A stretch of DNA of 10,213 nt from Candidatus Aenigmatarchaeota archaeon (GTDB lineage Archaea; Aenigmatarchaeota; Aenigmatarchaeia; QMZP01). Below the pieces are notes generated by a model. The model was not told where the DNA came from. It saw only the letters and a program-made list of their open reading frames with translations, and made no database searches. The DNA lies in the NCBI GenBank assembly GCA_003663225.1, contig QMZP01000015.1, positions 1 to 10,213 on the forward strand, in the 5' to 3' direction. This document shows, piece by piece, positions 3 to 10,211 of the stretch. Each line of letters begins with the position of its first letter. Position 1 is the first letter of the stretch. The position numbers and the translations under genes were made by a program.

Positions 3-65
3 GTAATGGTCCGGTGTCATGTGCGCGTTGTCGGGCGAGTTCAGCGTTATGTTCGGGTAGCCGTG
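3..65 (-). other. start of an LNSP-type Ig-like domain, cut by the window edge (residues 3383-3403)
   Basis: GYPNITLNSPDNAHMTPDHY is the opening of the same kind of Ig-like domain found at 9351-9644 and 7887-8156. Only about 20 residues are present; the gene continues past position 1. Confidence 0.6.
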
Positions 66-3000
66 CACGCGGAGCGTGGCGGTTGCCGTCGCGTTGAACC
101 CTTCGTAGGTCATGTTAACCTTCACCGGATAGTTGCCGTATGATGACGGCGCGGTTATATTGTAGTCATAGCCTCCTGAGCCGTCGGTCTCCACCCTAAC
201 CTCCTCCGGAAGCATCCTTATCTCCGGCCTCTTGCCTATCCGGGTGGCCTTCGACACCATCTCGTTCTTGCCGCCGTCTCCTGCGAATATGAACTCCCTC
301 ACATGCCTGGTCTCGCCGGTGTCATACTGGACAGAATCGGAGTACACATACTGCATCGCGTTCTCGGAATACGCATAGCCCCTGTAGAACTCCTCGCCCT
401 TTATTATGACGCTGCCGCCGTACATGCCGGTGTAGTCACCGGACTTCCACAGCTGGCCGAACCAGTTGTCGCCCAGGTCTGACTCGTACAGGTAGCCTGA
501 TTCGTCCTCCTGGTCGACGAGTTCCCCGTCGCCATCCACCCACAGCGAGTTCCTGTTCCCGGAGACGAACCACATGTATGTGAGCACGTCTTCTGTGGTT
601 TGCTGGGCGTATGTTATGAATATGTCCTCGAATACCACGCCGTCGGAGAAGAACTTCATGTTGGTCCCGTAGCTGTCATAAGCGGCGACGTTGGACTGGT
701 TGTAGCGGACCTCCACGAACAGCGGGCCTTCTGACAGCAACTGTCCGTCGAATGTGCTTGTCCAATATCCTGCCGAATCGGTGTTCTTGAAGTTGCTGTT
801 CAGGCCTATGTCCTCACCGTCCTTCCTTATGTCAATGAACCTGGCATAGTGGTCATCGGTCTTGTACTGGAAGCCGTCGTTCATGTTTATAGTGTAATCG
901 TTCCCTGCCGCTGACACCGAGTCAACCCTGGAATCATAGGACGGGGAAGTGACCCATGTGTTGTTGCCGTAGTAGACATAGTATAGCTGGGAGTCCGAGG
1001 CTGACACGTTGGCGTATATCCATATGGTCGTGTTGCTCGTGTTGATTGTGCCGTATTCCATCTGGTACGGTATCTCGTTTCCATCCGTGTCGGTCACCCT
1101 TATGTCGCTCCCATTGTGGTTCATCTTGCCCTGCTCTATCAGCGTCTGCGTGTCGAACGAGAAGTACACAGGCTGCTCGACCACGTCGCTCCCTGACACC
1201 TCTGTGAGCTTGAGAGGCATCCTGTACCTCCAGTCCCTGTCGAACCAAGAGGAGTTGCCTATGACATACCTGGAGTTGTACTGCTGGCTGCCGTCAAGGT
1301 ATATGTTGATGGACTGCAGGCCGACGCCGTTGCCGGTCGCTGTCACCGCGCTTCCCGAGACATTGGCCCTCTCGCCCGGCGAGTAGTCGTACCTGTCTAA
1401 GCTGGCCGTCAGGTTGACGTAGAGCACCCTGAGCGTCACGTTGTTGCCTGTTACGAAGGCCCCCCTCGAATCGGTCGCATTGAACACCACATAACGCTTC
1501 CCGGAGAATCCCTGGTCAGGCACCATGGTTGCCACCCCGGTATCGCTGTCTATGCTGATGCTTATGTTATCCACCGGGGTAGCCTGGTAGAGCACTATGT
1601 CATTGTTGGGGTCGGTGAAGTACTGCGACAGGTCGAGCGTCTTGTTCGTGTCGCGCGCCCACGTCTGGTTGGGTATTGGGCCAGAGAACACGGGGTCTGA
1701 AGCGCTTATGTTCACGCTCACCGCGGTGGAGAGCTCTATCATGGCGTTGCCGGTGAGGTTGTATATCACGCCGCCCGACTCGCCGTTGTGGCTGGCGTTT
1801 ATGGTGTAGTTGCTCATGAAGGACCTTGTCCCTATGCCGCTCTGACTGTACCACGTGACTTCCTGGGTGGGTATGTGGCCTATTGGCGCGCCGTTGGCAT
1901 AGAGCTGCTTTATCTCGGTGATGTTCAGCGTCCTGTTGTATATCGCCACCTCGTCCAGGAGACCGTCAAAGTCGCCGTGCCCTATGTACACTGGCGTGTC
2001 GGGCGTGGCCAGCGTTCCAGTGCCCGTGGAGCTGCCCTGCCTGACACCGTCTATGTATATGTTCCCGCCTGTCGAGCTGCTGTACGCCCATGCGACATGG
2101 TGCCACTTTCCGAGGTCTCTCACCTTGTAGGCGGGCGACACCGCACCCCAGCTTCCGCCGCGCGTGGCGTATACCTGTATCTTGCCTGTGTCTGCCACGT
2201 TGCTGCCGTAGTTGTCACCGAAGAACCTCACGTTGAAGTTGGAGCTGTCCTGGCCGGCCTGCCTGTACAGCAGGCTTGATGCCCTCTCATGGGTATATGA
2301 CCTCGGGTATACCCAGAAGGACACCGTGATAGCACTGTCCAGAGCCATGCTTGAACCGCTGCCGCAGTCGAGCATGTCCCCTGATTGGTTGAACTCGAAG
2401 CTCCCGTTAAGCTTGCCCCAGCTGACAGGGGCGCTGCTATTCTCCACCGTGCAGTTGTTGCCCTGGACTGAGAAGTCAAAGACGTGGGTATCGTTCTCGC
2501 CAAAGGACGAATCGTTGTTGAGGTGCCAGTGCGCCACCAGCCCGTCCCTGCTTATGGATTCGTAATTGGAGGTGAATGCCGTGAATTCCACCATTGACAG
2601 CCTGTCTTTGGCTGTCACATTGGCTTCAGTAACTATGGCCGTCGCGTTGGTTACATTGACGTCAAGGTACCACTTCCTGTTGATTATGCTGCCGTTGCCG
2701 CTGAAGCTCTCGTCATCGAACGTTGCGTTCAGGAACACGTTGTTGCTGTTATCCGAGCCGCTCTCCGTGTCCATCCTTACATCGACACCGGCAGTGTCCT
2801 CTATGCTTATGTCCTTGAACTTGTTATTGTCTGAGTCGTAGGTGCTGTATGACCTGACGAAGACGCCGTAGTTCTGGCTCTTGCTGATGTTGGCCTGCTC
2901 TATTGTGTTGTATCTCGACCTCTCCACGAAGAGGCATGCCGCATCCGTTGACGTGCAGTTCCTGGACCTGAAACGCTCCAGCCTGTTGTACGTTGCGCGG

Positions 3001-6000
3001 TACAGGTGGTTGTACGGGTTGGAGCTGGCGTTTATTCCGCTCAGCTCGTTATAGTCAGAGTCGTGGATGTACAGGCCCCTGTACACGTTGTACTGGGTGT
3101 CCAGGTCATCCACTATGTTGGAATCGGACTCATGGATATCGAGGCCGTTGTTGCTGTACCAGCACGTCACGTTGCTCAGCTCGTTGGCGTCAGACTGATG
3201 GAGGTATATGCCTGTGTTTATGTTGCCTTCTGCCAGCACGTTCCTTACAACATTGTCGTCCGAGCCGTACATGTACAGGCCCCTGTTCTCGTTGCTCTTG
3301 AGCGTGGCATTCTCTATCGTGCACCTGTCTGACGTGTAAAGATACATGCCGTACTGCCCGTTGCCGCTTGCTGTTATGTCTGAGAGTGTCACGTTGAGGC
3401 TGTTGTACAGGTATATGGCGTTGAACAGGCCGCTGCCTGTAACGTTGTCCACCACGCTATCGTTCGACCATGCGAGCAGCAGGCCGATGTGGTTGGAATG
3501 GGTGAGGTTGAGGTCCCTGTATGTGACATTGCTACAGTTTATGCAATAGGCGACGCCGGCATCAGGCGCGCTGGACAAGCCGAATCTGTGGTCGCTTATG
3601 CTGTGATTGTAGTATATCCTCCTGTCATGGTCCACGACATTGCTGGCATGTATGCTGTTGTCGTAATGGGGTTTCGTGGTGCCGTAAACGTAGAAGTTGT
3701 ATTTGTTGCCCGTCATGTTGCTGTTCTTCATTTCGTTCGTGCGCGATGAGCTGAAATGTATGCCGTACGCGCTGTTGCCGTATGCAGTGACGTTCTCTAC
3801 CGTGCTGTTGTCCGTGTAGTAGACGTACAGGCCGTACTTGTTGTGGTTCGTGGTGGTGTTGGAGACCGTTATGTTATCGCACAGGTCAAGCTTCACCCCG
3901 TAGTCGCTGGTGCCCACATCGTTGTGGCTCGCGTTGACGTTGAGCAGGACGGTGTTGTCCGTCCTTGAGATGTATATGCCGCCCGCCCCGCTGTATGAGC
4001 TCCTGTCGTTGTGAGCAACCGTCATGTTCTCCATCCTCGTGTAGTTGGAGAATATCACGTACAGGCCGTGCCTGCCGCTCTGCTTGACCGTGGCATTGGT
4101 CATCCTGACATAGTCGGAATAGTCCACGTAGATGCCGTATCTCGTGCTGCTTATTGATGTCACATTCTCCATTTTTGTCCTATGCGAATGGAAGTTCCTT
4201 ATCCCGTAGGTGTTGTCCTCCACGTCGGTATTGTATATCAGCGTGTCATTGCTGTGTTGCAGCATTATGCCATAGCCCGAGCTCTCTGATGCCTCGCTGA
4301 CAAAGGTGTCGTTTATTATCGTGCCGTTGACTCTGTCTGCCCATATGCCGTATTTGTAGTTTCCTGAGACGTTCGCGCCCTCTATCCGGGTGCTGTTGGC
4401 GCGTATGTGTATGCCCTCATAGGCGTCAGTGACCTTGGAATGCATAAGGGCGAACCTACTGGAGTTCACAAGGAACGGGTAATGGTATCCCGGGCTCACC
4501 GAGTATATGACGCTCTGGTCAGTACCGGTATCCTTGTCTTTGTCATGGTCGTAGACGAAGAACGATCCGCTGCTGTTGAGGTTTATGCTGTACTGCTGGT
4601 CCTCTGTCAGGTTCATCCTCAGCGTGACGTTCCTGAACGTCAGGTTGGCACCTATGCTCAGGTTGCCTACGAGTATTATGGACTGGTCGCTCACATTGCA
4701 GTCAGCCGCCACATGCCACGTCCTGTTGACCACGTTGTTGTAGCTGTAGGGCACGCACGTCCACAGCACGCTTATGGTGACATTGTTCGAGTCAGTGGAG
4801 TTGGTGCCGTCAGTGGCAGTGAACACGACATGCCTGTCTCCCATGAAATCCGTATCGGGTATTATGTTGACAATGCCGGTGTCATTGTCTATGGTTATGG
4901 TCATGCTGTCCGCCGGCGTGTAGGTGAAGTTCATCGGGTCCCCGTCCGGGTCAGTGAAGTAGTCATCGAGGTCAAATGTATGGTTGGAGTTCAGCCATAT
5001 GCTTATGTTGGATATGTTCGCTATGAGCTCGGGGGCGGCATTGCCTATCTCCAGGGTCTTGGTATTCTCTGCCGTGAATCCCTTATAGCTGGCGTTTACC
5101 TTTATGGTGTGCGTGCCCCTCCCGGGCGCATACAGGGTCTTGTTGTAGCTGCCGCCGGAATCCGTCCTCACCATGGTTTGTTCCTTCTTGGTATACGGTG
5201 TGAAGTTGAGCGACTCGTTGACCACCAGCATCACCAGGTACCTTGCCCAGTCGCTGGCGCTGCTCCAGCTTGCTCCGTTGTTGTTCGATACAAGGCCCTC
5301 TGTACTGGTGGACTCTGCGCCGACATCGGCCGCCCCGCTGGCGCCCGGGTTGTCATACCCGTCCACGACCCACCAAAGGTTCGAGTATGAGCCTATATCC
5401 CAGTCCACGGAATATGTGTACATCTGCCCGTCGCTAACCGGGTCTATGAGGCCGGTCTCCCCCAGCACCGTGCCTATGTCAGGCTCGTCAGCGGTGCCGT
5501 CATGCACCGCAAGCAGCACATCACCTTCAGCCGTGTTCTCCCTGAGCCAGCCGCCTATCTCCTTGACCTTCACCGCCTTCTTGCCCGCGGGCAGGCTTAT
5601 GGGCCTTGCATAGAACTCAGAAATGGAATCCTGCCCCACCGAGGACACCCACCCGTCCCTTGTGTCGTTTATGCTGTACACAACGCTGAGGGCCGACTGG
5701 TTGCTGGCCGCGGACGCATCCGGGTTCCCGTAGTACATGTATATTGTGTTGTTCGTGTCCGCAGAGATGTCCATTTCAACCCATATCACTGTGTCCTCTG
5801 TGTTGCACCCGCTCTCTATCCAGTAGTCCAGCTGGTTCAAGCCGCTGTCAGCGAAGCGGATATCAGAGCAGTCGGCGTTCATCTTCCCATTCTCTATGAG
5901 GGTAGCTGTGTCCGCGCTTATGTTCACATCCACGCCCGTGTAGTCCTTGCCCGACTGGTCGAATATGTTTATGGGCTCCCTGTATGGCCATGTCCTGTTC

Positions 6001-9000
6001 CACCAGTCTGTGAAGTTGCCGCCTATCCATATCTCATCCATGTACACGTTCACGTAGTTATCCGGCACAGGCACGCTGGTGAAGTTGAACTGCCCGTACA
6101 CCTCGACCAGGTTGTCCATCTCCGTCCTGTTCGGCTGGACCGTCTCGCTTATGTTTATCATCGGAGACATGGTAAGGTTGACCTGCTTGTTCCTGTTGTT
6201 GAGTATCTTTGCCACGCTGTTCCCGGTGAAGTAGTCCACCTTGCTGACGTTGGCGGTGTAGTTCCTCCAGTACGTGTACCCGTTCTGGTCATGGACGTAC
6301 CACGTGGCGTTGAACTTCGCGAATCCGAGGTGGTAAAGCTGTTTCACTTCATCAGAAGACAGCGCCCTGTCCCATATGCCCACCTCGTCTATGGTGCCGT
6401 TAAACCACTGCCCTGAACCATAAGTTCCTATATTGAAATTGCTACCAGTATCCAAAGACTGCCCTGAAATAGAGCTTATGTCACATACACCCAAGTATGA
6501 ACCATCGGCGTAAACTATTATTTCATCATCATTCCTCTCATAAACACCAGCCACATGATGCCATCTCCCGTCGTTGTAACCACTGCCTATGGAGCAGTCG
6601 GGCCTGTTGATACCGTCCCCCCCGCTCGCAGCAACCCAGATGGCCCCATTGCTGTTAAGTCGGATTCTATATCCCCTGCTACTACTGGACGTACCACCCT
6701 TGGTTATTATGGTTCCGGAATCCGTTGATTCGGAAGACTTGAACCAGCTTGCTACAGTGAACGAACCCGTACCAAAGTCAAGGCTGCCGTCAGCCGGGTC
6801 TCCCATTGTTATATAGTCATCCAAACCGTCGAAGCTGCAGCCCCGGTTCATCCAGCCGTCAACCGTGCAGTCAGTATCCCCTGTTGTCGTGCCGTCATTG
6901 CTTCCCGTCTCGTCTGTCACGGTCTGGCCTGTCCCGTTCACGTTGTCCTCGAACCTCCAGTAGCCTGCCATGCCGCCTGTGCCGCTTCCCAGTATCTCGC
7001 CGTATGTGGTGGCAGTGGTCCTGTTGTATGCCAGCTTCTTGGTGGTGTTGTAGAGCAGGACCGTGGCGTTGCCTATGGGCCTGCCGTCATTCGATGCAGT
7101 GACGTTGACGTCAAGGTACCATTGCCTGACCAGCTTGGACGTGGTGTCCACGCTCTCTCCCGTTATGCCGTATGTTGTGTTGAGGAAAACGTTCCTCATG
7201 GAGCCTGACTGCAGATGCACGTTGTGCGTGCCGGAGCCGGAGAAGTTCCCGCCGGTCACGTTGTTCTTCGGCGCGTCTATGAAGTAGATGCCGTAATCAT
7301 TGGATTTCGCTATCTGGCGATTGAACGTGTTGTTGGAAGAGCCGCTCACGTTTATGCCCGCGTTGGTGTTGCTGTTCGCTGTGTTGTCAGCGAACCAGTT
7401 GAAGCACGAGCACCCTTCCAGCCACACGCCGTTCTCGTTCTCGCTGACTATGTTGCTCCTGTAGGTGTTGTTCTTGGAGTGGTACGTCCTTATGCCGGCA
7501 TTCTGGTTGTCCTTCATGGTGTTGTTTATAACCAGCGTATCGTTAGTGCTTGCCTTCAGGTACAGCCCTATGTACTGGCCGCTGAGCGTATTATTATATA
7601 CATAGGAGCGGTTGGCCCCGTTGAGCTCCACCCCATGGCCGCCCTCACCGGTGCCCATGCTTATGTTGCAGCTCCTTATGGTTGTGTTGGTGTGGTTGGA
7701 CACTATGCCGGACACATTGCTTACGCTCCTTATCTTGTAGCCCCTGCAGTTGACCGTTATGTCGTCTGCGGTTATCTTTATGCATGCTGCCTCAAGAGCG
7801 TTGTTTACTATGTCCTGGGTAAGGTTGTAAGTCAGGCCGGCAGTGTCCAGCTCCCTGCATATGCCCACGTCAGTGCCGGCATCCTTCACGAAGCGCCTGG
7901 TGGCCGATGTGTTCGTGTTGTTTGCGTTGTCCACGCAGGTCACGTTCCACTTGTAGGCAGCGTTGTCCAGCCCGTACAGCTTGTAGCTGTACACCGTGCC
8001 GTTGGTCGCGGTGACTGTCGTGTTGATTGTGCCGTTTATGGTGAGGTTGCAGGACATCTCCGCTGCCAGGTTGTCCACCACAGTCCAGTTGAAGTATACG
8101 TACTTCGTGGTCACGTTGTCGTTCCTCGCGGGCGAGTGCAGAGACATGGACGGGTATGTGGAATCTACTATCAGGATAACGCTGTTGTTGCCCCTCACGC
8201 CGGAATAGCTCACGTTGGCCTTCAGCTCGTATTGCCCTCTGGTCTCGTTGACAGTGAGGGTGTAATTGTACCCTCCCGTGCTGTTGGTCATCAGTATGCT
8301 TTCCGTGTTCTCGGTTATGATGGGCCCGCCGAGGTTCCACATGCTCCTGTACATAACGCTCTCCGGCACCAGGTATGTGGAGCCCTCGGACGGCCTGTGC
8401 CATCCGAGCCTGTACTTGTCGCTGCCCGTCCCCTCCTCGAAATGGAATTCGAACCAGTAGAATCCCGGCTCGTTCACCTCGACCGTGCCTGTGTAGCTCG
8501 TCCAGCAGTCGCAGTAGGAGCCGCTGTACTTGGACGCCACCACTGTCCCGGTTGAGAGGTCATCCTTGGTGCCGTTGAGCACGAACTCCGAGTCATCATC
8601 GCTGTCCACTGCGAACGTGTAGGTCCCGGTCTCGTTCATGTATATCCAGCCGGCGAACCTGGCCTGGTAGTTGTCATCCGCCCCGAACGGGTTGCATGCG
8701 TCGTTGGTGCAGGATATGGTCGGCCTGTAGCCGCTGCCCGAGACACTGTCATACTCCACAGGGTCTGTCCAGTAGTCAACAAAGTCCTGGTGGCTGTCCG
8801 GGCTTCCCACGCTGTCCATATAGGTCTCCAGGAACACACCCTTGCCGGACGGGAAGCTAAGAGTGGAGTTGCCCGCGCCGGTGTTGCCGTAATACACATA
8901 CGCTATCTTGGTCTGGCCCGCTGACAGGTTTATCGGGAACCATACTGACGTGTAGGTGGTATTGCAGTGCATTGTTCTGTGCGGCACCTCGCTTGCCCCT

Positions 9001-10211
9001 ATCCTGACCCTTATGTCAGAGCAGTCCTGGTTCATGTATCCCGCGCTTATCGCTGCCGCGCTGTCTATGGTGGCGTTTATCAGTATGTTCTGATGGCTGG
9101 TGGAATTGGTCTCTGTTATGTTGACCCTATGCCTGTACTTGTAGCCGGTATCCCACCAGCCCGTGACGTTTGCGCTCAGCAGCCCGCGGTAGTCCTCATA
9201 AAGATACCTGGTATCGTTCAGATATATTCCCATCAGCTGGTTGGCCAGGGTTCCGTTGCTAGCGTTTATACTTCCCCAGACGCTCACATTCCTTGGCGTC
9301 TCCTCCGGTATCAGCGTGGGGTTGACCGACTCTGTGACCGTTATCCTGAGCATGTCGAACGTCCTGTTGGTGTTGCCCCAGTCAGAGGTGCCCGAGCCCC
9401 AGGCAAGGCAGTTCCAGACTGTTCCCTGCTTGAGTGTGGGTATGTTCCTTTCGAATATACCTTCATCATATGTACCCTCCAAGTCTATGGTGCCGTTGGG
9501 CTCCCATGCGCCGGAGTAGTTCCAGTACAGGGTCACGTTGTCGAGGCCAACTGAGTTCGTCACAGAGCAGTTGAACGTTATGGTCGCGTTCGGTGCCTTA
9601 TGATTGTCCTCAGGTGAGTTCAGGGTTGTCACGGTAGATGCAGTCACTGTGAGGTCCCGCAGGGCGCTCCCTGATACATCCCTGTATGTCACGTTAACCG
9701 TTATCGGATAAGTGCCGGCTGGTTTGTTGACCGTGAACATGTATTCATAGTCGCCGGTGTCATTCGTTGCCATCCTCACCTTCTCCATTCCCACCGAAGA
9801 GCTTAGGTTATTCAGCGCTGCGCTCGCCCTTATGTACAAGTGGGCATCCCAATCGCTGCCCGCGTTTGTTCCTGTACCGTCCACGTAATATGTATCACAC
9901 GCGCTATCACCGCTGTTCGGGTTTTCTATGCCGAATGACGAATCATAGTTCGAAAGATATGGTCCGGGACTGTTGCCATCCAGACCGTCGCCGTCTGCAA
10001 CGCCCCATATGCCGTCGTCACTGGACACAGTGTTTCTTGTGTAGAAGCTGTCTTCTGTTATCCCGGCGCCGTTACTGAACCTGTGACCTGTTATCCTTCC
10101 GCTGTATGTGCTGGTACCATCAAACGCTGTCCAGTCTGCATCGTCACCCGTGCTTACCATGTAAGACATCCTTTCGGCCATGGTTCTCTCAGTATCCCAT
10201 TTGAATACTAT
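3..10211 (-). CDS. giant multidomain surface protein, internal fragment (both ends outside window)
   Basis: A single minus-strand frame is open for 3,403 codons with no stop, start or end; residue 1 below means the codon at 10211-10209. It encodes only extracellular-type beta domains: three DUF2341, two LamG, one PA14-like, two right-handed beta-helices, two cadherin-like domains and several Ig-like domains. No transmembrane segment or enzyme active site was recognised. Sequons N-X-S/T are extremely common and cysteines tend to come in pairs within domains, which fits a secreted, N-glycosylated, disulphide-bonded protein. ATA (Ile) and AGG (Arg) preference points to an archaeon. Expected role, by inference: cell-surface adhesin or stalk, or an S-layer-associated protein. 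The frame is certain; the function is only as good as the domain matches, made by eye. The gene must be longer than 10.2 kb. Confidence 0.95.
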   Translation of the reverse strand, partial: MVFKWDTERTMAERMSYMVSTGDDADWTAFDGTSTYSGRITGHRFSNGAGITEDSFYTRNTVSSDDGIWGVADGDGLDGNSPGPYLSNYDSSFGIENPNSGDSACDTYYVDGTGTNAGSDWDAHLYIRASAALNNLSSSVGMEKVRMATNDTGDYEYMFTVNKPAGTYPITVNVTYRDVSGSALRDLTVTASTVTTLNSPEDNHKAPNATITFNCSVTNSVGLDNVTLYWNYSGAWEPNGTIDLEGTYDEGIFERNIPTLKQGTVWNCLAWGSGTSDWGNTNRTFDMLRITVTESVNPTLIPEETPRNVSVWGSINASNGTLANQLMGIYLNDTRYLYEDYRGLLSANVTGWWDTGYKYRHRVNITETNSTSHQNILINATIDSAAAISAGYMNQDCSDIRVRIGASEVPHRTMHCNTTYTSVWFPINLSAGQTKIAYVYYGNTGAGNSTLSFPSGKGVFLETYMDSVGSPDSHQDFVDYWTDPVEYDSVSGSGYRPTISCTNDACNPFGADDNYQARFAGWIYMNETGTYTFAVDSDDDSEFVLNGTKDDLSTGTVVASKYSGSYCDCWTSYTGTVEVNEPGFYWFEFHFEEGTGSDKYRLGWHRPSEGSTYLVPESVMYRSMWNLGGPIITENTESILMTNSTGGYNYTLTVNETRGQYELKANVSYSGVRGNNSVILIVDSTYPSMSLHSPARNDNVTTKYVYFNWTVVDNLAAEMSCNLTINGTINTTVTATNGTVYSYKLYGLDNAAYKWNVTCVDNANNTNTSATRRFVKDAGTDVGICRELDTAGLTYNLTQDIVNNALEAACIKITADDITVNCRGYKIRSVSNVSGIVSNHTNTTIRSCNISMGTGEGGHGVELNGANRSYVYNNTLSGQYIGLYLKASTNDTLVINNTMKDNQNAGIRTYHSKNNTYRSNIVSENENGVWLEGCSCFNWFADNTANSNTNAGINVSGSSNNTFNRQIAKSNDYGIYFIDAPKNNVTGGNFSGSGTHNVHLQSGSMRNVFLNTTYGITGESVDTTSKLVRQWYLDVNVTASNDGRPIGNATVLLYNTTKKLAYNRTTATTYGEILGSGTGGMAGYWRFEDNVNGTGQTVTDETGSNDGTTTGDTDCTVDGWMNRGCSFDGLDDYITMGDPADGSLDFGTGSFTVASWFKSSESTDSGTIITKGGTSSSSRGYRIRLNSNGAIWVAASGGDGINRPDCSIGSGYNDGRWHHVAGVYERNDDEIIVYADGSYLGVCDISSISGQSLDTGSNFNIGTYGSGQWFNGTIDEVGIWDRALSSDEVKQLYHLGFAKFNATWYVHDQNGYTYWRNYTANVSKVDYFTGNSVAKILNNRNKQVNLTMSPMINISETVQPNRTEMDNLVEVYGQFNFTSVPVPDNYVNVYMDEIWIGGNFTDWWNRTWPYREPINIFDQSGKDYTGVDVNISADTATLIENGKMNADCSDIRFADSGLNQLDYWIESGCNTEDTVIWVEMDISADTNNTIYMYYGNPDASAASNQSALSVVYSINDTRDGWVSSVGQDSISEFYARPISLPAGKKAVKVKEIGGWLRENTAEGDVLLAVHDGTADEPDIGTVLGETGLIDPVSDGQMYTYSVDWDIGSYSNLWWVVDGYDNPGASGAADVGAESTSTEGLVSNNNGASWSSASDWARYLVMLVVNESLNFTPYTKKEQTMVRTDSGGSYNKTLYAPGRGTHTIKVNASYKGFTAENTKTLEIGNAAPELIANISNISIWLNSNHTFDLDDYFTDPDGDPMNFTYTPADSMTITIDNDTGIVNIIPDTDFMGDRHVVFTATDGTNSTDSNNVTISVLWTCVPYSYNNVVNRTWHVAADCNVSDQSIILVGNLSIGANLTFRNVTLRMNLTEDQQYSINLNSSGSFFVYDHDKDKDTGTDQSVIYSVSPGYHYPFLVNSSRFALMHSKVTDAYEGIHIRANSTRIEGANVSGNYKYGIWADRVNGTIINDTFVSEASESSGYGIMLQHSNDTLIYNTDVEDNTYGIRNFHSHRTKMENVTSISSTRYGIYVDYSDYVRMTNATVKQSGRHGLYVIFSNYTRMENMTVAHNDRSSYSGAGGIYISRTDNTVLLNVNASHNDVGTSDYGVKLDLCDNITVSNTTTNHNKYGLYVYYTDNSTVENVTAYGNSAYGIHFSSSRTNEMKNSNMTGNKYNFYVYGTTKPHYDNSIHASNVVDHDRRIYYNHSISDHRFGLSSAPDAGVAYCINCSNVTYRDLNLTHSNHIGLLLAWSNDSVVDNVTGSGLFNAIYLYNSLNVTLSDITASGNGQYGMYLYTSDRCTIENATLKSNENRGLYMYGSDDNVVRNVLAEGNINTGIYLHQSDANELSNVTCWYSNNGLDIHESDSNIVDDLDTQYNVYRGLYIHDSDYNELSGINASSNPYNHLYRATYNRLERFRSRNCTSTDAACLFVERSRYNTIEQANISKSQNYGVFVRSYSTYDSDNNKFKDISIEDTAGVDVRMDTESGSDNSNNVFLNATFDDESFSGNGSIINRKWYLDVNVTNATAIVTEANVTAKDRLSMVEFTAFTSNYESISRDGLVAHWHLNNDSSFGENDTHVFDFSVQGNNCTVENSSAPVSWGKLNGSFEFNQSGDMLDCGSGSSMALDSAITVSFWVYPRSYTHERASSLLYRQAGQDSSNFNVRFFGDNYGSNVADTGKIQVYATRGGSWGAVSPAYKVRDLGKWHHVAWAYSSSTGGNIYIDGVRQGSSTGTGTLATPDTPVYIGHGDFDGLLDEVAIYNRTLNITEIKQLYANGAPIGHIPTQEVTWYSQSGIGTRSFMSNYTINASHNGESGGVIYNLTGNAMIELSTAVSVNISASDPVFSGPIPNQTWARDTNKTLDLSQYFTDPNNDIVLYQATPVDNISISIDSDTGVATMVPDQGFSGKRYVVFNATDSRGAFVTGNNVTLRVLYVNLTASLDRYDYSPGERANVSGSAVTATGNGVGLQSINIYLDGSQQYNSRYVIGNSSWFDRDWRYRMPLKLTEVSGSDVVEQPVYFSFDTQTLIEQGKMNHNGSDIRVTDTDGNEIPYQMEYGTINTSNTTIWIYANVSASDSQLYYVYYGNNTWVTSPSYDSRVDSVSAAGNDYTINMNDGFQYKTDDHYARFIDIRKDGEDIGLNSNFKNTDSAGYWTSTFDGQLLSEGPLFVEVRYNQSNVAAYDSYGTNMKFFSDGVVFEDIFITYAQQTTEDVLTYMWFVSGNRNSLWVDGDGELVDQEDESGYLYESDLGDNWFGQLWKSGDYTGMYGGSVIIKGEEFYRGYAYSENAMQYVYSDSVQYDTGETRHVREFIFAGDGGKNEMVSKATRIGKRPEIRMLPEEVRVETDGSGGYDYNITAPSSYGNYPVKVNMTYEGFNATATATLRVHGYPNITLNSPDNAHMTPDHY
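66..203 (-). other. Ig-like domain, GY/KVN-type, copy 4 (residues 3337-3382)
   Basis: VETDGSGGYDYNITAPSSYG, YPVKVNMTYEGFN and ATATLRV repeat the module seen at 9645-9782, 8166-8330 and 5043-5213. It is the clearest copy and defines the consensus used for the others. Confidence 0.65.
204..962 (-). other. large unassigned domain after DUF2341 copy 3 (residues 3084-3336)
   Basis: About 250 residues I cannot name. Features: SEGPLFVEVRYNQSN, FEDIFITYAQQTTEDVLTYM, WFVSGNRNSLWVDGDGELVD, DNWFGQLWKSGDYTGMYGGS and FIFAGDGGKNEMVSKATRI. The E-G-P-[LV]-x-x-x-[VF] strand and long alternating strands recall beta-supersandwich folds such as those of polysaccharide-acting proteins, but this is a weak impression. 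It fills the variable position after DUF2341 and is the largest domain there. Confidence 0.5.
963..1247 (-). other. DUF2341 domain, copy 3 (residues 2989-3083)
   Basis: WFDRDWRYRMPLKLTEV, GSDIRVTDTDGNEIPYQMEY, TTIWIYANVSASDSQ and YYVYYGN give a complete match to the family. Both cysteines of copies 1 and 2 are absent: the first position reads NGSDIR instead of xCSDIR, and no cysteine follows. Confidence 0.92.
1248..1415 (-). other. bridge domain before DUF2341, copy 3 (residues 2933-2988)
   Basis: NLTASLDRYDYSPGERANVS followed by GVGLQSINIYLDGSQQY. The phrase Y-x-P-G-[ED]-x-[AV]-x-[VI]-[ST]-G is typical of macroglobulin/Ig-like strands in surface proteins. It ends one residue before the W-F of DUF2341 copy 3, as in the other two units. 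Confidence 0.6.
1416..1697 (-). other. cadherin-like / He_PIG-type domain 2 (residues 2839-2932)
   Basis: IPNQTWARDTNKTLDLSQYF then TDPNNDIVLYQATP, ISISIDSDTGVATMVPDQGF, KRYVVFNATDSRG and NNVTLRVLYV align strand for strand with domain 1 at 4764-5042. The D-P-N-N-D loop has lost one acidic residue compared with D-P-D-G-D. It connects the post-helix domain to the third bridge. Confidence 0.82.
1698..1889 (-). other. post-helix domain 2, second half (residues 2775-2838)
   Basis: GHIPTQEVTWYSQSG and SFMSNYTINASHNG are the second half of the post-helix sandwich, in which a G-x-I-P-x-Q turn leads to an N-Y-T-I-N-A strand. In uninterrupted proteins of this type the turn follows straight after the first half; here 220 residues of LamG come between. 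Confidence 0.6.
1890..2549 (-). other. LamG-like (concanavalin A-like) domain 2 (residues 2555-2774)
   Basis: Starts RDGLVAHWHLNND and shows GSFEFNQSGDMLDCG, ITVSFWVYP, GKWHHVAWAY, GNIYIDGVRQG, VYIGHGDFDGLLDEVAIYNR and TEIKQLYANG, the full LamG_3 series. Two cysteines (NNCTV, LDCGS) could pair. Unlike LamG 1 it has the same base and codon use as the rest of the gene. Probable sugar- or protein-binding head, nested in the post-helix domain. Confidence 0.9.
2550..2717 (-). other. post-helix domain 2, first half (residues 2499-2554)
   Basis: INRKWYLDVNVTNATAIVTE and ANVTAKDRLSMVEFTAFTSN follow beta-helix 2 exactly as RQWYLDVNV follows beta-helix 1. The two copies share a 17-base identical stretch at the WYLDVN codons. 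It is cut off by LamG 2 and resumes at 1698-1889. Confidence 0.62.
2656..2672. repeat. 17-base direct repeat, copy A
   Basis: The + strand reads ttgacgtcaaggtacca, identical to 7105-7121. It encodes WYLDVN (last base excluded) of the post-helix domain in both places, with the same codon choices. Confidence 0.8.
2718..4763 (-). repeat. long right-handed beta-helix 2, about 24 coils (residues 1817-2498)
   Basis: About 680 residues of PbH1/NosD-type coils with a period near 22-24 residues. Turn motifs include YEGIHI, YGIWAD, YGIMLQ, YGIYVD, HGLYVI, GGIYIS, YGLYVY, YGIHFS, IGLLLA, YGMYLY, RGLYMY, TGIYLH, NGLDIH, RGLYIH and YGVFVR. Tyrosine recurs beside the turn and is often followed by [ST]-[DN] (YSD, FSN, RTD, YTD, TSD, GSD, QSD, ESD, DSD), so a Tyr ladder and a Ser-Asp corner ladder run along the helix. 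An Asp/Lys loop DHDKDKDTGTD lies near the N-terminal end. Around residue 2160 a RRIYYNHSISD...CINCSNVTYRDLNL segment matches the mid-helix phrase of NosD-like proteins. By my count it carries about three dozen sequons. Probably a rigid glycosylated rod; no catalytic site seen. Confidence 0.88.
4764..5042 (-). other. cadherin-like / He_PIG-type domain 1 (residues 1724-1816)
   Basis: Hallmarks: FDLDDYFTDPDGDPMNFTY, SMTITIDNDTGIVNIIPDTD, then GDRHVVFTATDG and NNVTISVLW. The D-Y-F-x-D-P-D-G-D loop and A-T-D-G strand are those of the putative-Ig/cadherin-like domains that tile adhesins; the Asp cluster usually binds calcium and stiffens the chain. The same domain returns at 1416-1697 with a partly altered loop (QYFTDPNND). 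Confidence 0.82.
5043..5213 (-). other. Ig-like domain, GY/KVN-type, copy 3 (residues 1667-1723)
   Basis: RTDSGGSYNKTLYAPGRG, HTIKVNASYKGF and NTKTLEIGN follow the same order as the other three copies. Here it leads into a cadherin-like domain instead of an L-N-S-P Ig domain, so the plan is conserved but the next module was exchanged. Confidence 0.6.
5214..5723 (-). other. unassigned beta-sandwich-like domain after DUF2341 copy 2 (residues 1497-1666)
   Basis: I do not assign a family. Visible pattern: EFYARPISLPAGKKAVKVKE, then GDVLLAVHDGTADEPDIG, YSVDWDIGSYSNLWWVVDGY and NNNGASWSSASDWARYLVML. Alternating strands, a buried WW and a D-x-G-x-x-D-x-P-D loop look like the jelly-roll modules found beside carbohydrate-active enzymes, so a glycan-binding role is plausible but unproven. 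It occupies the position taken by PA14 in the previous unit. Confidence 0.5.
5724..6005 (-). other. DUF2341 domain, copy 2 (residues 1403-1496)
   Basis: Opening WWNRTWPYREPINIF, central MNADCSDIRFAD, LDYWIESGCN and closing YMYYGN are textbook DUF2341. The cysteines in ADCSD and SGCNT occupy the same two places as in copy 1, supporting a conserved disulphide. The following domain is unrelated to the one after copy 1. Confidence 0.9.
6006..6161 (-). other. bridge domain before DUF2341, copy 2 (residues 1351-1402)
   Basis: Segment with INISETVQPNRTEMDNLVEV, YGQFNFTS and YVNVYMDEIW, ending at the WW of DUF2341 copy 2. It matches the bridge segments at 9159-9350 and 1248-1415 in length, order and strand pattern. 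Likely a small Ig-like spacer. Confidence 0.5.
6162..6323 (-). other. post-helix domain 1, second half (residues 1297-1350)
   Basis: After LamG 1 ends at QLYHLG, the sequence ATWYVHDQNGYTYWRNYTAN and a later strand NKQVNLTMSP resemble the second half of the post-helix domain: the N-Y-T-[IA]-N-[AV]-S strand is the same as SNYTINASHNG after LamG 2. Joined to the first half at 6972-7169 it would make one complete sandwich of about 120 residues. Confidence 0.5.
6324..6971 (-). other. LamG-like (concanavalin A-like) domain 1 (residues 1081-1296)
   Basis: All LamG_3 landmarks are present: GYWRFEDN, GCSFDGLDDYITMG, FTVASWFKS, GRWHHVAGVY, IIVYADGSYLG, and the terminal GTIDEVGIWDRALSSDEVKQ. Such domains bind glycans or proteins, often with calcium. 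Two cysteine pairs are suggested (TDCTV/RGCSF and PDCSI/GVCDI). The part encoded by about 6418-6840 differs from its surroundings: two 60-base lines there are only about 37-38% GC, and GGT glycine and TTG leucine codons are strongly over-used. That suggests this module entered the gene later than the rest. It lies between two halves of the post-helix domain. Confidence 0.88.
6972..7169 (-). other. post-helix domain 1, first half (residues 1015-1080)
   Basis: Contains RQWYLDVNVTASNDGRPIGN then ATVLLYNTTKKLAYNRTTATTYG, the pattern of a carboxypeptidase-regulatory-like (transthyretin-type) sandwich that commonly caps NosD-like helices in archaeal proteins. It stops at the point where a G-x-I-P turn would be expected, and LamG 1 begins. 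The remaining strands appear after LamG at 6162-6323. Confidence 0.6.
7105..7121. repeat. 17-base direct repeat, copy B
   Basis: Same 17 bases as 2656-2672, at the corresponding WYLDVN codons of the first post-helix domain. Flanking bases diverge quickly. Confidence 0.8.
7170..7886 (-). repeat. right-handed beta-helix 1, NosD/PbH1 type (residues 776-1014)
   Basis: The N-terminal cap reads CIKITADDITVNCRGYKI, a classic opening of NosD-like helices. Then come about nine coils of roughly 22-25 residues marked by G-[IV]-x-[LV] turns: SGIVSN, HGVELN, IGLYLK, AGIRTY, NGVWLE, AGINVS, YGIYFI, HNVHLQ. Asn-rich corners (NNT, NNTYRSN) stack as an asparagine ladder. An unusual CSC pair interrupts the coil at GVWLEGCSCFNWF. 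Such helices bind or cut polysaccharides in some families, but here no catalytic residues were recognised, so a structural or ligand-display role is more likely. It is about one third the length of beta-helix 2. Confidence 0.85.
7887..8156 (-). other. Ig-like domain with two cysteines (residues 686-775)
   Basis: Starts YPSMSLHSPARND, has the strand YVYFNWTVVDN, first cysteine in MSCNLTING and second in WNVTCVDNANN. The closing phrase W-x-V-x-C-x-D-x-A-x-N is very common in archaeal and bacterial surface Ig-like modules. It sits immediately before beta-helix 1 and probably acts as its N-terminal adaptor. Confidence 0.7.
8166..8330 (-). other. Ig-like domain, GY/KVN-type, copy 2 (residues 628-682)
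   Basis: Pattern TNSTGGYNYTLTV, GQYELKANVSYSG and a last strand NSVILIV match the other three copies of this spacer. It links the PA14-like domain to the two-cysteine Ig-like domain that follows. Three sequons lie within it. Confidence 0.6.
8346..8843 (-). other. PA14-like carbohydrate-binding domain (residues 457-622)
   Basis: Core motifs fit PA14/GLEYA: ARFAGWIYMNETGTYTFAV leads into the acidic run DSDDDSEFVLNG, then the paired-Cys loop YCDCW, a strand with GFYWFEFHFEEG, RLGWHRP and the closing YLVPESVMY. PA14 domains are beta-barrels that usually bind sugars, in yeast adhesins through calcium held by adjacent Asp residues; several consecutive Asp residues are visible here. The family also occurs in glycosidases and toxins, but nothing enzymatic is seen nearby. 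It fills the position directly after DUF2341 copy 1, which holds unrelated domains after copies 2 and 3. Confidence 0.75.
8883..9158 (-). other. DUF2341 domain, copy 1 (residues 352-443)
   Basis: Opens with the family's typical W-W-[DN]-x-x-[WY]-x-[YH]-R start (WWDTGYKYRHRVNIT), continues with MNQDCSDIRV in the middle and ends with YVYYGN. DUF2341 domains occur in extracellular archaeal and bacterial proteins, commonly alongside LamG; their ligand is not firmly known. Two cysteines (QDCSD and MHCNT) are placed as in copy 2 and probably pair. A PA14-like domain follows. Confidence 0.85.
9159..9350 (-). other. bridge domain before DUF2341, copy 1 (residues 288-351)
   Basis: A roughly 55-65 residue segment with ITVTESVNPTLIPEETPRN, then VSVWGSINAS and MGIYLNDTRYLY, ending directly at the WW that opens DUF2341. 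Equivalent segments precede the other two DUF2341 copies (6006-6161 with ISETVQPNRTEMDNLVEVYG and VNVYMDEIW; 1248-1415 with RYDYSPGERANVSG and INIYLDGSQQY). The shared layout (Pro-rich start, V.G strand, N/G-I-Y-L-D strand) suggests one small Ig-like module that travels with DUF2341. Confidence 0.55.
9351..9644 (-). other. Ig-like domain of LNSPxDN type (residues 190-287)
   Basis: Begins with TTLNSPEDN, then ITFNCSVTNS, NVTLYWNYSG and a second cysteine in TVWNCLAWG. This is the familiar Ig-like module of archaeal surface proteins in which an opening L-N-S-P is followed by two buried cysteines, probably disulphide-bonded. It resembles 7887-8156 (SLHSP ... MSCNLTING ... WNVTCVDN) and the start of another copy at 3-65 (ITLNSPDN). 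Likely a structural spacer. Confidence 0.7.
9645..9782 (-). other. Ig-like domain, GY/KVN-type, copy 1 (residues 144-189)
   Basis: A short beta-sandwich-like module with the pattern TNDTGDYEYMFTV followed by AGTYPITVNVTY and a final strand ending LTV. The same pattern returns at 8166-8330, 5043-5213 and 66-203 (for example YELKANVSY, HTIKVNASY, YPVKVNMTY), always downstream of a DUF2341 or of the domain after it. Such modules are usually spacers in surface proteins. The family assignment to a general Ig-like fold is inference from strand pattern and repetition. Confidence 0.6.
9783..10211 (-). other. unassigned acidic beta-rich segment (residues 1-143)
   Basis: I do not recognise this segment. 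It opens with KWDTERTMAERMSYMVS, contains an Asp/Gly-rich stretch (VADGDGLDGNSPGP) that could bind calcium, and ends near a pattern (SDWDAHLYIRAS) followed by an Ig-like domain. Its place just before the Ig-like module matches the unassigned domains at 5214-5723 and 204-962, so it may be the C-terminal part of another domain that followed a DUF2341 copy outside the window. GGT glycine codons are more frequent here than in most of the gene. Function unknown. Confidence 0.5.

Follow-up and report, generated by a model that had tools for sequence, protein, structure and literature searches.

Split Ig-like domains that probably carry exchangeable DUF2341-led cargo in a giant modular protein of an aenigmatarchaeon

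A contig-long open frame and its repeating units

The stretch of DNA analysed here (the window, 10,213 bp) is the entire contig G000:C15 of a genome bin of 942 kb and 165 contigs that is 63% complete. The organism belongs to the Aenigmatarchaeota, a phylum that we take to be part of the DPANN group. NCBI taxonomy places the phylum in the archaeal kingdom Nanobdellati. The minus strand holds a single open frame of 3403 aa, which spans the contig without an internal stop, is cut at both ends and is the only gene present. A Pfam scan of the translation gives three DUF2341 stretches, two LamG domains, several Beta_helix/NosD matches, one PA14 domain and two Big_9 domains. The protein contains 151 N-x-S/T sequons against 62 expected from its composition, an excess that would fit a glycosylated surface protein, and in several relatives whose open frame has a start within the locus a hydrophobic, leader-like segment is visible by eye near the N-terminus. 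The fragment is probably part of a giant modular protein exposed at the cell surface, and its architecture, together with precedent, points to a role as an adhesin. Searching with the whole protein, in which only the 2430 candidates sharing most words were scored, returned 15 matches besides the window itself, 22-41% identical and never covering more than 16% of the query; in the named genomes that were scanned the whole protein had no match, and no viral contigs were found.

A sequence-only reading of the window had described a unit in the order bridge, DUF2341, variable domain X and Ig-like domain of the GY/KVN type, seen three times. Pfam and self-comparison confirm this order: bridge and DUF2341 recur together at residues 309-446, 1369-1499 and 2955-3083, and the GY/KVN segment at residues 143-208, 640-738, 1677-1722 and 3336-3401. 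As also claimed, units 1 and 2 then continue through an adaptor Ig domain and a beta-helix to a domain that LamG interrupts. The range given for the repeats, 3..9350, holds the three units but proved too short, since the fourth GY/KVN copy implies a truncated unit outside it, at 9636-10211. The features of the window are as follows, in the direction of translation.

3..10211, minus strand: giant ORF fragment, probably of a surface protein (ORF reading; sequon excess)
9786..10211, minus strand: slot X0 of partial unit 0, whose host Ig N-half and DUF2341 are expected beyond the contig end; family listings empty up to E 10
9636..9785, minus strand: unit 0, C-half of the host split Ig (profile match)
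9357..9623, minus strand: IG200, the Ig domain after the slot frame, which recurs in contig C98 and in loci L036 and L038
9545..9635, unstranded: 91-nt exact DNA tract, identical to C98:4238-4328
9490..9542, unstranded: 53-nt exact DNA tract, identical to C98:2747-2799
9375..9419, unstranded: 45-nt exact DNA tract, identical to C98:2870-2914
9207..9350, minus strand: unit 1, host Ig N-half (the bridge of the sequence-only reading)
8883..9161, minus strand: unit 1, divergent DUF2341, with which the insert begins
8304..8882, minus strand: unit 1, slot X1, PA14-like (Pfam PA14, 29.9 bits, cut-off 24)
8160..8303, minus strand: unit 1, host Ig C-half
7896..8099, minus strand: adaptor Ig domain before beta-helix 1
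7032..7844, minus strand: beta-helix 1, limits approximate (Pfam)
6990..7136, minus strand: unit 1, post-helix domain N-half
6342..6827, minus strand: LamG 1, inserted in the post-helix domain
6162..6323, minus strand: unit 1, post-helix domain C-half
6030..6161, minus strand: unit 2, host Ig N-half
5724..6008, minus strand: unit 2, DUF2341 (PF10102, 66.9 bits, cut-off 23.4)
5181..5723, minus strand: unit 2, slot X2; unmatched in Pfam, in NCBIfam, in the remaining 155 genomes of the phylum and in the protein search
5040..5180, minus strand: unit 2, host Ig C-half
4767..5066, minus strand: Big_9 domain after unit 2 (Pfam)
2622..4574, minus strand: beta-helix 2, limits approximate (Pfam)
2550..2687, minus strand: unit 2, post-helix domain N-half
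1908..2354, minus strand: LamG 2, inserted in the post-helix domain
1719..1877, minus strand: unit 2, post-helix domain C-half
1425..1727, minus strand: Big_9 domain before unit 3 (Pfam)
1284..1424, minus strand: unit 3, host Ig N-half
963..1253, minus strand: unit 3, DUF2341 (39.7 bits, cut-off 23.4)
201..962, minus strand: unit 3, slot X3; no family match listed
60..200, minus strand: unit 3, host Ig C-half (joined with the N-half: Big_7, 26.6 bits, cut-off 24.1)
3..59, minus strand: start of another post-frame Ig domain, cut by the contig end (by eye)

The DUF2341 of units 2 and 3 thus exceeds the family cut-off, and the divergent copy in unit 1 reaches 17.4 bits, below the cut-off, when its unit is scanned separately. 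The same bin has a contig, C98, that is one open frame with two more units, whose slots we call Y1 and Y2.

Several other contigs and loci have a similar appearance. C98 (L061), C47 (L063), C108 (L052) and C70 (L062) are each one end-to-end open frame with LamG, DUF2341 or beta-helix domains, and C92 (L064) is probably another; these short contigs may be fragments of one giant gene, or of a few, that came apart at repeats. A 29-nt exact match links beta-helix 1 of the window (7660-7688) to C70:3743-3771. Elsewhere, G028:C7 encodes at about 123800-129200 an open frame of 9724 aa with at least four DUF2341 domains, and at L102:4761-9458 (CP070801.1) two adjoining frames separated by one stop, possibly a single interrupted gene, hold the DUF2341-LamG unit of G020 and the sequence ahead of it.

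One Ig domain split around the insert

Judged from sequence, the bridge and the GY/KVN segment are the two halves of one Ig domain. Each is about 47 aa long, the length of half an Ig domain. When the N- and C-halves of nine units were joined, Ig models (Big_7, Invasin_D3, CarboxypepD_reg and Big_1) matched across the join in six, mostly below the Pfam cut-off, and in the other three (w1, a2 and g) a match across the join was absent; with the halves in reversed order, none of seven joins matched an Ig model across the join. Two joins exceed the Big_7 cut-off of 24.1, namely unit 3 (26.6 bits, profile positions 5-70 of 70) and a unit of G083 (28.3 bits). In unit 3 neither half alone matches Big_7, and reversing the halves gives 16.0 bits, over positions 5-42.

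Of the 156 genomes of the phylum, 77 have a match to a profile built from 15 joined pairs, a count that includes half matches and split copies, and 46 have a match to a profile of the C-half alone. As known split copies also give spurious matches across the join (e.g. G000:C15:9093-9344), a spanning match is weak evidence by itself, and it is the alignments that count. All four uninterrupted homologues aligned (L108-L111) run from an IYLN-type strand straight into a TNSTGxY-type strand, with no insert between them. In a local test the joined profile gave weak spanning matches in reversed order as well, the best at 0.006 against 4e-8 forward, leaving aside the unmasked C-half of unit 0 (9.5e-15 reversed, 2.8e-13 forward). 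Among PDB chains the joined-half profile found nothing significant (best E 0.13). Ten frame units, differing in their slots, could be aligned, and by the sequence profiles the predicted insertion point in the host Ig lies between the 'xIYLN' and 'TNSTGxY' strands.

From the DUF2341 phylogeny described below, the insert is DUF2341 plus X, with DUF2341 going with X and lying outside the frame. The idea of a fixed frame with one variable slot is supported and now extends to six slots with six different domains in this genome. The boundary of the frame has to be redrawn, since DUF2341 had been counted as frame and belongs to the insert.

The domain that follows the beta-helices appears to be a second host on the same insertion principle. 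In the window's genome its LamG inserts measure 206-224 aa. Joined, its halves yield a profile that detects an intact copy, 88 aa long, in L026 from a genome in the same family (E 2.3e-12, positions 2-95 of 104). With the halves reversed, the profile also scores at this copy (8.9e-9), covering positions 2-67 only and running into the next domain.

More elaborate nesting was seen at two other loci. At nt 43-1161 of L063 (G000:C47) a LamG is divided into two parts (profile 2-34 and 33-151) separated by about 660 nt, with a match resembling the fibrillar-collagen C-terminal domain (COLFI) between them, so that inserts may be nested twice. In L098 (G083:C17, residues 732-1104) a slot LamG seems, by eye, to carry a discoidin-like insert.

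Cargo in this genome and in its relatives

The genome has six slots, X0-X3 in the window and Y1-Y2 in C98, distributed over five complete units and one partial unit. One of the six X domains is PA14-like, one is weakly nidogen-like (Y1; NIDO, 17.9 bits, below the cut-off of 25) and four are without family assignment. The PA14-like nature of X1, proposed from the sequence, is borne out by the Pfam score given above, and X2 and X3, left unassigned by the same reading, indeed find nothing in the Pfam and NCBIfam listings up to E 10. Nor is a family listed up to that value for X0, with program filters that drop most weak matches for all three. Searches of the other 155 of the 156 phylum genomes gave no match to X2 or X3, nor did a protein search that needs shared 5-residue words, and X2 finds nothing significant among PDB sequences. 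Similarity among the six slots is not significant, the lowest E being 0.027 with BLAST and 0.17 with phmmer in a set of 13 sequences. Kinship between X0 and X2 (E 7e-5) was dropped, since the C-half was part of that match and comparing only the slots gives E 0.26. Y2 resembles the second slot of L098 with E 4e-4 in BLAST without composition correction and 0.02 in phmmer. The DUF2341 domains of C98 are too divergent for Pfam and match the frame profile, itself built with them. The X domains may bind ligands on other cells or surfaces.

What follows DUF2341 was counted for 67 copies in an initial set of relatives (iE < 0.01, among 117 listed), including the three of the window and leaving aside those of C98: LamG follows in 24 and other domains in 42, many of the latter FFDDF-type by eye, and one is incomplete. 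In giant proteins of L034, L035, L040 and L041, DUF2341 is followed by a recurrent domain with a start like FxYxxPxxxYYVV, reminiscent, we presume, of IgGFc-binding domains.

Eight complete frames with a DUF2341-like insert were found in the related loci examined (three in L039, two in L098 and one each in L038, L026 and L100). Seven carry LamG, and L100 carries another sandwich plus an Ig domain (by eye); this count excludes the GY segments without a detected N-half at L036 2507 and L038 3517 and the cut unit L039_1791, and the weaker C-half matches in other genomes lie mostly outside it. One fixed X domain across lineages, the pattern opposed to exchange, is thus largely seen outside the genome and absent inside it. 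Two further split Igs have inserts in which the frame profile finds no DUF2341, one of 1229 aa with five LamG matches (L099) and one of 363 aa that is glycine-rich by eye (L101).

Phylogenies suggest that the cargo entered the host more than once. In a tree of 55 DUF2341 rows (E < 1e-15, of 72 at E < 1e-5), a single clade is rejected for the 13 copies in split Igs (p-AU 1.5e-48), for nine of these without L039 (p 0.0072, for a group picked after seeing the tree) and for the five copies of the window's genome (p 0.0005). Three of the four DUF2341s of L039 group with copies from L038 and L036 that lie outside any detected split Ig (support 98), and the LamGs of L039 group with a LamG of L036 that is likewise outside a detected split Ig (97/83). 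The LamGs of the L026, L098 and L038 frames fall among LamGs without a preceding DUF2341, in a tree whose main division is weak (42/98), whose bootstrap had not settled and in which the frame LamGs L098_1007 and L038_3943 are labelled 'no DUF2341' by a distance rule. Both trees hold long branches, and the host-Ig tree has no starred branch, so that strict incongruence between host and cargo goes beyond what these trees resolve. By these groupings the same host Ig seems to have received DUF2341+LamG cargo of two or more kinds, with DUF2341 and X apparently moving as one.

We consider it probable that split Ig domains of a modular archaeal protein, itself probably surface-exposed, carry exchangeable DUF2341+X cargo. 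The strongest competing account is ordinary, ancient domain accretion, in which DUF2341 is a promiscuous adaptor in front of many sandwich domains and only the slow shuffling usual in giant surface proteins has taken place. The varied domains that follow the 67 DUF2341s agree with it, as do the prevalence of LamG in the frames of relatives and the divergence of the bridge+DUF2341 copies inside the window, which are merely about 28-40% identical to each other. Six different cargos in the split-Ig frame of a single genome, together with exact DNA tracts in the flanking Ig, speak against it, and we regard accretion as a serious contender that falls short of an even chance.

Exact DNA tracts, exchange and known display systems

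Among the nine of 165 contigs compared, exact matches of at least 45 nt occur only at the Ig domain after the slot, where the window shares the 91-, 53- and 45-nt tracts with C98. The stretch before the 91-nt tract is 57% identical over 159 nt, and the pair holding the other two tracts is 66% identical overall. Third codon positions within the three tracts are identical throughout (30/30, 17/17 and 15/15), compared with 70/143 outside them in the second pair. After codon shuffling (20,000 times each) the longest run reached at most 45 for the 91-nt pair and at most 53 for the other, the latter equal to the observed 53; 99.9% of shuffles stayed at or below 37 and 36, respectively. Upstream of the shared DNA lies X0 in the window and Y2 in C98.

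The 91-nt tract reaches the end of C98, and so it may be an overlap in the assembly graph at which two places in the genome, or two strain haplotypes, run into the same sequence. That it stops exactly at the contig end is what such an overlap predicts; moreover, the C-terminal end of the window seems to lie in the same kind of Ig, and no other contig ends overlap among the nine contigs compared. The 53- and 45-nt tracts, in contrast, are internal to both contigs, and an overlap of haplotypes would itself be evidence of swapped cargo, X0 against Y2. An overlap is a possible source of the longest tract, and one that we hold with some doubt. The proposal of recombination at domain borders is supported for the Ig directly after the slot, where all three tracts lie.

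A stronger form of exchange, in which an active cassette system switches binding specificity by swapping cargos between frames within a lineage, had also been suggested. The exact tract, which starts just after the slot-bearing Ig and joins X0 and Y2 to identical downstream DNA, is what such a system could leave behind. Other observations speak against it: a DNA search of the rest of the 63%-complete bin (40 of 43 candidates scored) gave no second copy of the window's slot domains, the reverse transcriptase family RVT_1 (PF00078) has no match in this bin, and the halves of the frame have diverged. Switching of this kind is unlikely. A diversity-generating retroelement, though such elements are discussed together with DPANN archaea in parts of the literature, was set aside as very improbable, since the one bin searched lacks RVT_1 and whole domains vary here instead of point positions.

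Under the explanation that we favour, exchangeable cargo on split Igs, the backbone would be a stalk of Ig/Big domains and beta-helices in which an Ig domain is interrupted at intervals by cargo consisting of the DUF2341 adaptor and a variable X. The cargo would leave and re-enter its host Ig at one point and hang sideways off the stalk, so that it could be replaced without disturbing the backbone. Over evolutionary time recombination between paralogous frames may have changed the cargos, and for the flanking Ig, at least, the exchange may be recent. A bolder version treats the split Ig as a universal insertion port, a 'cargo port', that takes up ligand-binding modules such as DUF2341+X, LamG arrays or Gly-rich stretches, with recombination in the adjoining, homogenised Ig re-sorting cargos within the population; we offer it tentatively and think it rather doubtful.

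This layout has close counterparts in bacterial RTX adhesins, whose split Ig-like domains are described as projecting ligand-binding domains off axis while holding the two cargo ends on the same side (PMC12077191, PMC10865825). In AhLap, FrhA and MpIBP a discontinuous Ig-like domain likewise holds an inserted domain (PMC12077191, PMC10865825), one giant adhesin can have more than one such unit, and the cargos include carbohydrate-binding modules and, in MpIBP, PA14, which the archaeal unit 1 resembles. The archaeal design may work like this display, a likeness drawn at the level of domain layout. In contrast to the RTX adhesins, the host is an archaeon, the cargo begins with DUF2341, five complete units and a partial one carry differing cargos, and DNA tracts are shared beside the slot; no RTX repeats or secretion signal are seen, and no RTX family is among the Pfam matches of the 3403 aa, in a fragment that lacks both protein termini. 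FrhA is described as split after a single strand, whereas the archaeal halves are about equal.

Among archaea, DUF2341 proteins encoded at type IV pilus loci have been proposed as PilY-like tip adhesins (PMC4858521). These too have DUF2341 within large extracellular proteins, as far as that report describes them; here, a split Ig encloses DUF2341 and one further domain. In nanohaloarchaea, the giant surface proteins of the SPEARE group have Ig-like domains and a proposed role in host-cell binding, and LamG surface proteins are described alongside them (PMC10266531). They share with the window giant size, Ig-like domains and LamG in a DPANN setting, but the window's list of 13 Pfam families has no VirB4-like ATPase family, and the slot architecture is absent from the relevant parts of their published description. 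LamG-like proteins are also reported as abundant in Mia14 and other DPANN archaea and proposed for host interaction (PMC5498576); in the window, by contrast, LamG is itself inserted in a host domain.

No report of split Ig or nested Ig-like domain insertion in archaeal adhesins was found in the open-licence PubMed Central literature, preprints aside. As far as these searches went, the archaeal host, the DUF2341-led cargo, the six ports (one partial) with six cargos, the uninterrupted counterparts and the shared DNA tracts are apparently new. Split Ig display domains are considered hard to identify with homology-dependent programs (PMC10865825). Profiles of joined halves offer a route, from sequence alone, to candidate ligand-binding modules in the giant proteins of uncultured archaea, and predict where exchange between strains should appear. 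A different insert in each copy of the split Ig could let the cell change what it binds, and the cargo port, if true, would give a tiny, host-dependent archaeon a changeable binding repertoire.
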